Source: Chromobacterium sp. ATCC 53434
GTDB taxonomy: Bacteria > Pseudomonadota > Gammaproteobacteria > Burkholderiales > Chromobacteriaceae
Length of the DNA: 64,000 bases
NCBI RefSeq assembly: GCF_002848345.1
Contig: NZ_CP025429.1
Coordinates: 2,232,001 to 2,296,000, forward strand
Direction: 5' to 3'
The translations under genes were made by a program, and so were the position numbers. The notes under the pieces are model-generated. The model did not search any database and was not told where the DNA came from. It saw only the letters and a program-made list of their open reading frames with translations. Positions 50,266-52,242 of the stretch are shown here, piece after piece; position 1 is the first letter of the stretch, and the number at the start of each line of letters is the position of its first letter.

Positions 50266-51057
50266 TCAGCTCAGCGCCGGATAGCCGCCCAAGCCGTCCG
50301 GCCAGGCGGTCAGCACCTCGAAGCCGTCGTCGGTGACGGCAACCATATGCTCCCACTGCGCCGACCACGAGCCGTCCTGGGTCACCACCGTCCAGCCGTC
50401 GCCCAGCTGCCGCGTGCCCGCCTTGCCGGCGTTGATCATCGGCTCGATGGTGAACACCATGCCCGGTTTCAGCTTCAGGCCGGCGCCGCGACGGCCGTAG
50501 TGCAGCACCTCCGGCTCCTCGTGATAGACCCGGCCGATGCCGTGGCCGCAGTATTCGCGCACCACGCTGAAGCCGGCGGCCTCGGTCACGTTCTGGATCG
50601 CGTGGCCGACATCGCCCAGCGTGGCGCCGGGACGGACCGCCAGGATGCCTGCGCGGGTGGCGTCGTAGCAGGTCTCGACCAGCCGCCGCGCCTCCGGCGA
50701 CGGCGTGCCGGCATAGAACATCCGGCTGCTGTCGCCATGCCAGCCGTCCTTGATCACCGCCACGTCGATGTTGACGATATCGCCGTCGCGCAAGACCTGG
50801 GTCTGGGACGGTATGCCGTGGCACACCACCTGATTGACCGACGAGCAGATCGCCTTCGGATAGCCGTAATAACCGACATTGGCCGCCTTGGCGCGCTGCA
50901 CCTTGACGATGTATTCGTGACAACGCGCGTCGAGCTCCTCGGTGCTGACGCCGGGCTTCACATGCTCGCCTATCATCGCCAGCAGCTCCGCCACCAGTTT
51001 TCCCGCCTCGCGCGCCTTGGCCACCTCGGCCGGCGACTTGATCACCACCTTGCTCAT
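50266..51057 (-). CDS. map: methionine aminopeptidase, type I
   Basis: A 263-residue metalloenzyme removing initiator Met. Metal ligands appear as the Asp pair in VNIDVAVIKDGWHGDSSRMF (D97 and D108 region), the His in CGHGIGRVYHEEP, the Glu in FTIEPMI and the Glu in QWEHMVAV; the substrate His is in CHGIPS. It is short of the usual N-terminal SH3 extension, as for type I. Its start overlaps the ParD-like stop (ATGA), so it is coupled to that small protein. It is probably a second, accessory map. Confidence 0.94.
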   Translation of the reverse strand: MSKVVIKSPAEVAKAREAGKLVAELLAMIGEHVKPGVSTEELDARCHEYIVKVQRAKAANVGYYGYPKAICSSVNQVVCHGIPSQTQVLRDGDIVNIDVAVIKDGWHGDSSRMFYAGTPSPEARRLVETCYDATRAGILAVRPGATLGDVGHAIQNVTEAAGFSVVREYCGHGIGRVYHEEPEVLHYGRRGAGLKLKPGMVFTIEPMINAGKAGTRQLGDGWTVVTQDGSWSAQWEHMVAVTDDGFEVLTAWPDGLGGYPALS

Positions 51058-51281
51058 CGCGCCGCCTCCTCCGCCCGTCGTTGAATGTCCAGCCCGCTCC
51101 CGTCCTGCCCGGCGCGCAGCAGCAGCTGGCAGATCTCGCTGTAGCGCATGTCCGGATTCAGCTCGGCCAGCATGCCGATGCGCAGCCAGTGTTCGGCCTG
51201 GGAGTTGATCGAGCGGCTCAGCGCCTCGCTGGCCGCGCGCAGATTGTCATGCATCTGCTCGGAAATCTTGACGATGCCCAT
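51054..51281 (-). CDS. ParD-like ribbon-helix-helix protein
   Basis: A 75-residue protein from the ATG at 51281 (MGIVKISEQMHDNLRAASEALSRSINSQAEHWLRIGMLAEL), matching the ParD_like family (a short RHH with SRSINSQAEHWLRIG). It is the first gene of the ParD-like/map pair. A TATACGTTT...AAACGTATA dyad with 9-bp arms lies 13-38 bases before the start. No ParE-type toxin is present, so this is not an ordinary ParDE module. Confidence 0.88.
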   Translation of the reverse strand: MGIVKISEQMHDNLRAASEALSRSINSQAEHWLRIGMLAELNPDMRYSEICQLLLRAGQDGSGLDIQRRAEEAAR

Positions 51282-51293
51282 AAGCGGCTCCGA

Positions 51294-51319
51294 TATACGT
51301 TTAATATATGAAACGTATA
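51294..51319. promoter_or_regulatory. inverted repeat operator of the parD-like/map unit
   Basis: TATACGTTT (51294-51302) and AAACGTATA (51311-51319) are perfect 9-bp arms around 8 bases, 13 bases before the ParD-like start. The position and symmetry fit autoregulation by a ribbon-helix-helix dimer. Confidence 0.7.
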
Positions 51320-51456
51320 ACAATTGACGAAAACTGGCAAGCGCGCCGTGCGCTGTCTCCGATTGCCAACAGCCGGCCGGGCCTGATCCGGCGCGGCTCC
51401 GACGTTCTTTCCGCGTATCCTGGCCCCGATGCGGCGCCGGCTTTCTTGCAATTCCG

Positions 51457-51478
51457 TTTGATATTGTACAGAATCAAA
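51457..51478. promoter_or_regulatory. dyad operator at the umuD-like gene
   Basis: TTTGAT-N10-ATCAAA with a TGTACA-like centre, 18 of 22 positions symmetric. It overlaps a weak TTGCAA-17-CAGAAT promoter and ends 2 bases before the ATG. Autoregulation by the encoded protein, or SOS control, is inferred. Confidence 0.6.
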
Positions 51479-51480
51479 TC

Positions 51481-52077
51481 ATGGACAAGGACACACCCAA
51501 ACAACACGGCGGCAAGCGCTCCGGCGCCGGCCGAAAATCGGTCTTCGGCGGCGACAGGACGGTGGCCCTGCGCGTGCCGGAACCGCTGAAGCCCATCCTG
51601 CAGCAGTGGCTGGACGACTACCGCAGCTGGCGCACCGCGGACAGCGCGCAGGCATCCGACTTTCGCACGCTGGGCGCCCAGCTCAGCGAGCTGTCGCTGC
51701 CGCTGTTCGCCGGCAGCGTGCCGGCCGGCTCGCCGGTGCCGGCGGACGATCTGAAAGAGGCCGACATCGACCTCAACACCCATCTGGTCAGCCGTCCCGG
51801 CGATACCTTCATGGTCACGGTGAAGGGCGATTCGATGCAGGGCGCCGGCATACACGACGGCGACCTGCTGCTGGTGGAGCGTGGCCGCGAACCGCGCAAC
51901 GGTAAGGTGGTGGTGGCCGCGCTGAACGGCGAATTGACGGTGAAACGGCTGGAGCGCGGCCCGAACGGCCTGCGGCTGCTGCCGGAAAACCCGGCCTATC
52001 GGCCGATAGACGTGCCGGAAGATGCCTCGTTTCATATCTGGGGCGTGGTGACCAGCGTCATCCACAAAGTGGACTAG
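51481..52077 (+). CDS. UmuD-like S24 peptidase with N-terminal extension
   Basis: A 198-residue protein. Residues 72-198 align with UmuD: PLFAG-like region, cleavage site A82-G83, catalytic S118 (KGDSMQGAG) and K155 (GELTVKRL). The distances G-to-S (35) and S-to-K (37) equal those of E. coli UmuD. Residues 1-71 are extra: GKRSGAGRKS followed by TVALRVPEPLKPILQQWL, which resembles a ribbon-helix-helix start. No umuC follows. Leader is absent or very short. It may act as a cleavable regulator like Acinetobacter UmuDAb, an inference. Confidence 0.88.
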   Translation: MDKDTPKQHGGKRSGAGRKSVFGGDRTVALRVPEPLKPILQQWLDDYRSWRTADSAQASDFRTLGAQLSELSLPLFAGSVPAGSPVPADDLKEADIDLNTHLVSRPGDTFMVTVKGDSMQGAGIHDGDLLLVERGREPRNGKVVVAALNGELTVKRLERGPNGLRLLPENPAYRPIDVPEDASFHIWGVVTSVIHKVD

Positions 52078-52095
52078 CCAGCGAGGGAGACAGCG

Positions 52096-52242
52096 ATGGG
52101 ACAGCAAAACGACAGCATCAAGATGAAATTCAACGACTGGAAGCGCTTGCCGCGCCCCTACCGCGCGATGATAGCCGGCCAGCCGCAAGTGCTGGTCAGC
52201 CGTCCCGGGCGCGACTACTTCATGCCGGTGCAATTCGTCTGA
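52096..52242 (+). CDS. small protein, 48 aa, downstream of the umuD-like gene
   Basis: A frame of 48 residues with a good SD (AGGGAGA 7 bases upstream), starting 18 bases after the UmuD-like stop. MGQQNDSIKMKFNDWKRLPRPYRAM and LVSRPGRDYFMPVQFV; the latter resembles the UmuD segment LVSRPGDTFMVTV of its neighbour. No family is recognised. It might be a regulator or partner of the UmuD-like protein, or may be nothing. Confidence 0.6.
   Translation: MGQQNDSIKMKFNDWKRLPRPYRAMIAGQPQVLVSRPGRDYFMPVQFV

Follow-up and report, generated by a model that had tools for sequence, protein, structure and literature searches.

How Chromobacterium and its relatives control an SOS response is an open question. 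A genome survey found lexA missing in C. violaceum and in Laribacter hongkongensis (PMC3135505), and the locus analyzed here raises the question of whether a UmuD-like gene with an N-terminal extension, which starts directly behind a palindrome, could stand in for it. The locus lies within 64,000 nucleotides (the whole stretch analyzed, here called the window) of a single-contig genome of 5.14 Mb. We put at about 0.78 the probability that the gene encodes a UmuDAb-type self-cleaving repressor that takes the place of LexA and controls its own operon, umuDC, and a few other genes, a reading suggested at the sequence level by its domains and catalytic residues, the homology of its N-terminal domain to that of UmuDAb, the conservation of its operator, and the set of sites at which that operator recurs. 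A candidate regulator, operator, and targets are named here; the features of the locus are collected in Table 1. If the reading is true, UmuDAb-style control of mutagenesis would not be an Acinetobacter oddity. Within the open-licence literature (PubMed Central), a scope that leaves the subscription literature mostly outside, we found no description of an N-extended or ribbon-helix-helix UmuD, of UmuDAb outside Acinetobacter, or of SOS control in Chromobacterium or Vogesella that matches the regulator.

Table 1. Features of the candidate regulator locus, in positions of the window unless residues are given
Feature	Position	Strand	Basis
Candidate UmuDAb-like cleavable repressor, 198 aa	51481..52077	+	ORF, domain matches, homologue alignment, AlphaFold2
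Regulator N-terminal domain: basic arm GGKRSGAGRK, TVALRVPEPL, helix 34-52	residues 1-71		
Regulator C-terminal domain, S24	cleavage site A82-G83, S118, K155		
Gene for conserved small protein, 48 aa	52096..52242	+	ORF, conservation, median dN/dS 0.19
Operator-like palindrome TTTGATATTGTACAGAATCAAA; arms TTTGAT/ATCAAA, core GTAC	51457..51478	.	sequence, orthologue upstream regions, genome-wide sites
Possible -35 element TTGCAA	51446..51451	+	8 of 12 consensus bases

The C-terminal two thirds of the protein form an S24 autoprotease domain that is closest to UmuD. Residues 71 to 194 align with E. coli UmuD (8gmt_B; E = 7.8e-25), PF00717 of Pfam spans residues 74 to 190, and NF007621, the NCBIfam model for the autoproteolytic subunit of pol V, spans residues 82 to 195 with a score of 136.2 against a cut-off of 110. 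Among aligned homologues, the alanine of the cleavage site, the serine, and the lysine are invariant and the glycine is at least nearly so, with 35 residues from G83 to S118 and 37 from S118 to K155. The first-pass annotation, which had aligned this part with UmuD and given the same residues and spacings, is borne out here, and the UmuD-like domain, the A-G cleavage site, and the Ser/Lys dyad are those of a UmuDAb-type protein. Foldseek searches with a first AlphaFold2 model likewise returned, as top matches, the C-terminal domains of UmuD or UmuD', LexA, and CI-type repressors, and the closest named relatives are proteins of Chromobacterium species.

A LexA of the usual architecture is not what these searches describe. 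No match to the full-length model TIGR00498 exceeds the cut-off in any of the 61 family genomes. Among 14 control genomes 6 have one that does, and the model must accordingly be regarded as strict. Against the regulator it reaches 91.1 bits (cut-off 110.95), through the C-terminal domain only, and below the cut-off it finds in the same genome the regulator and the UmuD of the umuDC operon. The LexA DNA-binding domain, PF01726, has no match in the regulator and none in its genome at E 0.01; in the family, weak matches occur in 38 of 61 genomes, one of them marginally over the cut-off, compared with 9 of 14 controls over it. The regulator would therefore have in common with LexA the S24 autoprotease domain and, by inference, the role, whereas the winged-helix domain is absent.

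What would take the place of that domain is an extension of 71 residues, extra relative to UmuD as had been noted at first pass, which is conserved in the homologues with the consensus GGxRxGAGRK...GExTxxxRVPxSLxP. Its closest described parallel is UmuDAb of Acinetobacter. In the sections of the source considered here (PMC4807011), UmuDAb is a UmuD relative with an extra N-terminal domain of 59 aa, cleaved at A83-G84 with S119 and K156, which represses its own gene, ddrR, and the umuDC genes; the need for both the N-terminal domain and the operator in repression is shown there by mutation, with changes at E24 or K40/R41 causing derepression, and a cleavage-dead mutant is not inducible. The A. 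baumannii umuDAb that we compared, from a chromosome-sized record in a collection of plasmids, encodes 203 aa from its ATG, has E24, K40, N41, and A83-G84 at the published places, and is preceded by the palindrome TTGAAAATGTAACTTTTTCAA. When only the N-terminal domains are compared by blastp, the regulator and UmuDAb share 41% identity over 44 residues (1 to 44; E = 1.9e-9), and a profile of the N-terminal domain built from 24 non-Acinetobacter rows gives the UmuDAb domain 54 bits, compared with at most 6.9 among 200 shuffles. A homologous N-terminal domain of about 60 to 70 residues is thus present in both proteins, which also have in common an A-G/Ser/Lys C-terminal domain, a length of about 200 aa, and a genus without LexA. 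In the tree they stand apart, with 12 Chromobacteriaceae-type proteins in a clade of their own (100/99) and UmuDAb in another (100/100) that also contains five Acinetobacter-type proteins; a joint clade of UmuDAb and the Chromobacteriaceae-type proteins is not rejected (p-AU 0.54), and the tree is compatible with one or two origins.

The fold of this domain is poorly predicted. Two AlphaFold2 runs gave a firm helix at residues 34 to 52 and a weak one at 61 to 69, with no strand formed in the monomer. No ribbon-helix-helix family appears in the Pfam matches of 94 homologues, and a profile search with 30 N-domain pieces returned eight weak and unrelated PDB matches with no ribbon-helix-helix chain among them. 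A ribbon-helix-helix fold is possible for the domain.

A dyad before the start codon had been pointed out in the first-pass annotation. It is indeed there, as part of a longer palindrome of 22 bp that ends two bases 5' of the ATG. The operator pattern used here, TTTGAWNNYGTACRNNWTCAAA, was drawn from the upstream regions of orthologues of this gene, and the sites at umuDC, recA, and rmuC discussed below were found with it; in the window it occurs once at up to 3 mismatches (0 at this locus), where shuffles lead one to expect 0.02. The suggested search for the same gene and dyad in relatives gave a clear answer, as the palindrome lies upstream of all 53 orthologues that could be located out of 54 tried. 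In the named contigs (L006 to L030 of 40 loci; Chromobacterium, Vogesella, Aquitalea, and a few other records), all 25 close orthologues have it with at most 2 mismatches, 25 to 40 bp 5' of the GG codon. In the whole genomes, 28 of 29 have it within the same limit, 27 to 40 bp 5' of that codon, the remaining gene (L067) not having been located by the script. The two sets overlap, so that the 53 reduce to 38 distinct upstream-plus-protein sequences, of which 20 have no mismatch, 16 have one, and 2 have two. The operator of UmuDAb, with TTGA/TCAA arms and a GTnAC core, is listed under features unique to Acinetobacter in the part of the source considered (PMC11332147). The arms match those found here at the regulator's own gene, and the GTAC core is one base shorter than that of UmuDAb. 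One orthologue match (L070, in G022) contains a single in-frame TAG, which must precede the GG motif, since from that motif onward no stop interrupts the frame.

The dyad had also been said to overlap a predicted promoter, and of this claim only the dyad stands firm. A scan that needed at least 9 of 12 consensus bases reported no promoter on the regulator's strand, and the -35 element in Table 1 is a weak match; the same TTGCAA is present in L006, L007, L008, L009, L010, and L011 and not in L012. With a 17-bp spacer, a -10 element CAGAAT (51469-51474) would fall within the palindrome, leaving the mRNA almost without a leader. On the other side of this region, at 50266-51323 on the minus strand, lie two genes divergent from that of the regulator, one Map-like and the other small and ParD-like, as judged by eye.

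In the genome that carries the window, a search allowing up to 2 mismatches finds three sites for the pattern and none for its reverse. The three precede the regulator gene, umuDC, and a 112-aa gene with no Pfam match. The umuDC site (C1:1449653-1449674) lies 8 bp 5' of the umuD ATG, and sites at umuDC in trans are found in relatives as well, as for UmuDAb, whose operator is likewise at umuD genes. Allowing 3 mismatches adds eight sites (one in all for the reversed pattern), L049 to L056, which we rejected as targets, since most of them fall within unrelated genes or right where these begin. Across the family, 53 of 61 genomes carry a close orthologue of the regulator (E below 1e-70) and contain 198 sites, compared with 15 for the reversed pattern (means of 3.7 and 0.28), whereas the eight genomes without it contain 6 and 4, with no excess (Mann-Whitney p = 1.9e-5, not corrected for relatedness).

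This distribution bears on two other explanations. The protein might be an ordinary pol V UmuD whose tail has no regulatory function and which, left without a umuC beside it, serves a distant UmuC. Its NCBIfam name is that of the pol V autoproteolytic subunit, and UmuDs with the same extension precede umuC in other lineages (L146, L147, L150 to L152, L216, and L217). The NF007621 score is accordingly that of a pol V UmuD, but the neighboring umuC that would go with it was not found in the window, where tblastn with the UmuC of the same genome gave a best match of only E 0.098, in agreement with what had first been read from the letters. The genome already has a umuDC operon, about 834 kb away, with a UmuD that has no extension; the extension is conserved and homologous to the repression domain of UmuDAb; and the excess of sites is confined to regulator-bearing genomes. 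From pol V UmuD, with which it shares the C-terminal domain, the regulator thus differs in its 71-residue extension, its own-gene operator, and the lack of umuC in the window, and we regard this explanation as improbable.

We would give slightly less credit still to the palindrome being the damage operator of another regulator. The same genome does encode a second S24 regulator, a 252-aa protein at L003 (G000:C1:4818173, ORF 1051-1809) that is CI-like by eye, with an apparent helix-turn-helix, just 5' of a SIS-domain-like gene. It is possibly kin to gonococcal NG1427, a LexA-like protein cited, in the part of the source considered, for an SOS-like response to oxidative stress (PMC4913304). Most of the eight genomes without an N-extended regulator have other S24 proteins and yet show no site excess, and the operator resembles that of UmuDAb, with which the regulator has its N-terminal domain in common.

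The preferred reading, in which the regulator itself occupies these sites, can be put as a sequence of steps, of which we infer the binding as a dimer, the repression, the cleavage driven by RecA, the induction by damage, and the partnership with the 48-aa product. The regulator would dimerize through its UmuD-like C-terminal domain, and its N-terminal domain would bind the palindrome at the start of its own gene. In the bound state it would block its own operon, made up of itself and the 48-aa partner, along with umuDC and a few further genes. Upon DNA damage, RecA filaments would provoke self-cleavage at A82-G83 by Ser118 and Lys155, which would part the two domains and free the operators; the error-prone polymerase and, in some relatives, also RecA and RmuC would then be made. 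As far as sequence can speak to it, the N-domain homology, the conserved dyad, the umuDC site, and the likeness of the operators support the first-pass suggestion of a factor that regulates itself, can be cleaved, and resembles UmuDAb in layout.

The extent of the regulon is another matter. The surroundings of 52 sites in relatives were read (31 plus 21), picked by us among the matches listed and not at random, with most of the regulator's own sites left out. By reading, they comprise 10 umuD or umuD-like genes, 3 umuD remnants, 3 short S24 proteins, 5 RmuC (each where PF02646 matches), 7 SnoaL-like proteins, 4 relatives of the 112-aa protein (by eye), and 3 recA. We do not claim 17 of the 52 (L118, L119, L131, L135 to L139, L157, the first site of L159, L166, L167, L168, L171, L172, L158, and L164); L158 and L164 adjoin a heptosyltransferase-like gene. 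Of the genome groups, g1 is the Chromobacterium group, and g2, g7, and g10 have the tentative labels Aquitalea, Paludibacterium, and Vogesella. Upstream of recA, scanned in 50 of the 60 recA-bearing genomes, strong sites were found in 16, namely all 13 of g10 and 3 of 6 in g7, with a weaker variant in both g4 genomes. No strong recA site was seen in the 13 regulator-bearing g1 genomes scanned (the present one included), in 5 of g2, 2 of g9, and 1 of g6, or in the eight genomes without the regulator. At the g7 recA loci L185, L188, and L190, two operator-like palindromes lie 12 bp apart, 5' of recA. For rmuC, 2 of 30 loci scanned have strong sites, both in g2, and sites are present in some g2 and g10 genomes; none was found in the present genome or in any of the 17 regulator-bearing g1 genomes scanned.

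It is therefore conceivable, given the lack of a strong recA site in all 13 Chromobacterium genomes, that the regulon of Chromobacterium, with its three clear sites in the present genome, may be small. Taken further, the regulator might be a local switch that controls only itself and umuD genes, with the recA and rmuC sites of relatives as side branches and no LexA-like SOS response in Chromobacterium. The three own-genome sites and the missing recA and rmuC sites of the group fit such a switch, as does UmuDAb, whose targets in the part of the source considered are mainly polymerase genes, recA not being among them (PMC4807011). Against it stand the recA sites of every g10 genome, which differ from that published regulon, the paired sites of half the g7 genomes, and further genes preceded by the box in the Chromobacterium group, such as the SnoaL-like one. 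We hold this narrower role to be a serious contender, though one we would tentatively rank below a wider LexA-like control by the regulator.

Two of the gene families behind these sites can be described further. The operator stands upstream of a family of 112- to 121-aa proteins in Chromobacterium-group genomes (L046:1154-1489 on the minus strand, L129, L130, L133, and L134), which is a candidate damage-induced gene. It also stands upstream of the SnoaL-like protein of 129 to 141 aa in g2 and g1 (L121, L122, and L124 to L128), unexpected for a damage regulon; in Pfam, L125 gave one weak match below the cut-off and L121 none.

The small gene that follows the regulator starts 18 bp past its stop codon, behind an AGGGAG stretch that resembles a ribosome site, and is likely part of the same operon. 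It lies about 8 to 47 bp 3' of the regulator at 23 of the 25 named orthologous loci, and at the other two (L009 and L010) elsewhere in the locus, outside the 90 bp searched. The dN/dS value in Table 1 derives from 20 distinct sequences, a set from which the script's pattern missed five loci with V at the first compared residue, though they were seen by reading, and variable columns number 18, 16, and 34 by codon position. The gene is conserved, co-directional, and under purifying selection. At E 1, neither Pfam nor NCBIfam matches its product, and a search found seven relatives, the named ones all being hypothetical proteins of Chromobacterium and one being labelled a transposase in UniRef. 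The frame noted at first pass is thus a gene; its reported resemblance to UmuD comes down to one 14-residue stretch (E = 0.009) that, by eye, the versions from Vogesella and Aquitalea do not have in common with the regulators beside them, and we reject UmuD mimicry as a conserved trait and take the likeness to look incidental. Because of its position and co-inheritance with the regulator, it could be speculated that the protein acts as a co-regulator by analogy with DdrR. UmuDAb has a divergent ddrR, encoding the corepressor DdrR, where the regulator has this co-directional gene instead, and a comparison with the small divergent ORF next to umuDAb, which we take to be ddrR by its position, showed no similarity.

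The extension is also found on other UmuDs, in g3, g5, and g7 genomes, on an Acinetobacter plasmid and a Sulfuricella plasmid, and at L216 and L217. Most of these, unlike the regulator, are followed by umuC and may do both jobs; umuC follows at L146, L147, and L150 to L152, and at L154 another Y-family polymerase-like frame. TTGA-type dyads, TTGATTTTTGATGCAATAATCAA (L154) and variants, lie upstream at 6 of 9 N-extended loci (L146, L147, L148, L149, L153, and L154), and L150, L151, L152, L206, L207, and L208 have other, partial, or no such dyads. The Acinetobacter plasmid umuD (L205) is preceded by TTGATTATGTTACATATTCAA and that of L216 by TTGATTACTGTGTCAATAATCAA; the cores differ from the regulator's. 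All of these dyads were chosen among the top palindromes in front of each gene, with no shuffled control. As TTGA-type dyads are often found just upstream of N-extended UmuDs, these sequences suggest that the extension generally serves as a DNA-binding domain for autoregulation, and the main reading, if true, would suggest in turn that such UmuDs in general double as repressors. We would give even chances to a broader scenario, in which N-extended UmuDs form a class of self-regulated repressors and polymerase managers with UmuDAb as one branch, and in which one Chromobacteriaceae member lost umuC, gained the 48-aa co-regulator, became a family-wide replacement of LexA, and in some genera came to include recA among its targets. 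A lineage long thought to be without an SOS switch would in that case have one, with a different DNA-binding domain and a different operator.

When the phylum was sampled evenly, 2 of 398 genomes besides the present one (G162 and G452) gave a match with E below 1e-22 that reaches the first 15 residues, and in a third (G415, L215) the extension was recognized by reading; only 29 new loci were read, so the count is a lower bound. Three N-extended UmuDs in g3, which has no close orthologue (L148, L149, and L153), are followed not by umuC but by a membrane-like frame of 136 to 156 aa, carry a different dyad, TTGATTTTTGGTGCAATATTCAA, and may represent a parallel regulator. On viral contigs (L258 to L337, for example L270, L318, and L327), umuDs related to that of the Acinetobacter plasmid mostly begin past the basic arm and strand (MSxxxPSIIEIKPHL), many with a UmuDAb-like palindrome (such as TTGATTATGTAACRAAATCAA) just upstream. 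In the tree, finally, the UmuDs of Chromobacterium and Aquitalea that have no extension (L002, L116, and L140) group with extended g7 UmuDs, hinting that the extension was lost in their lineage.
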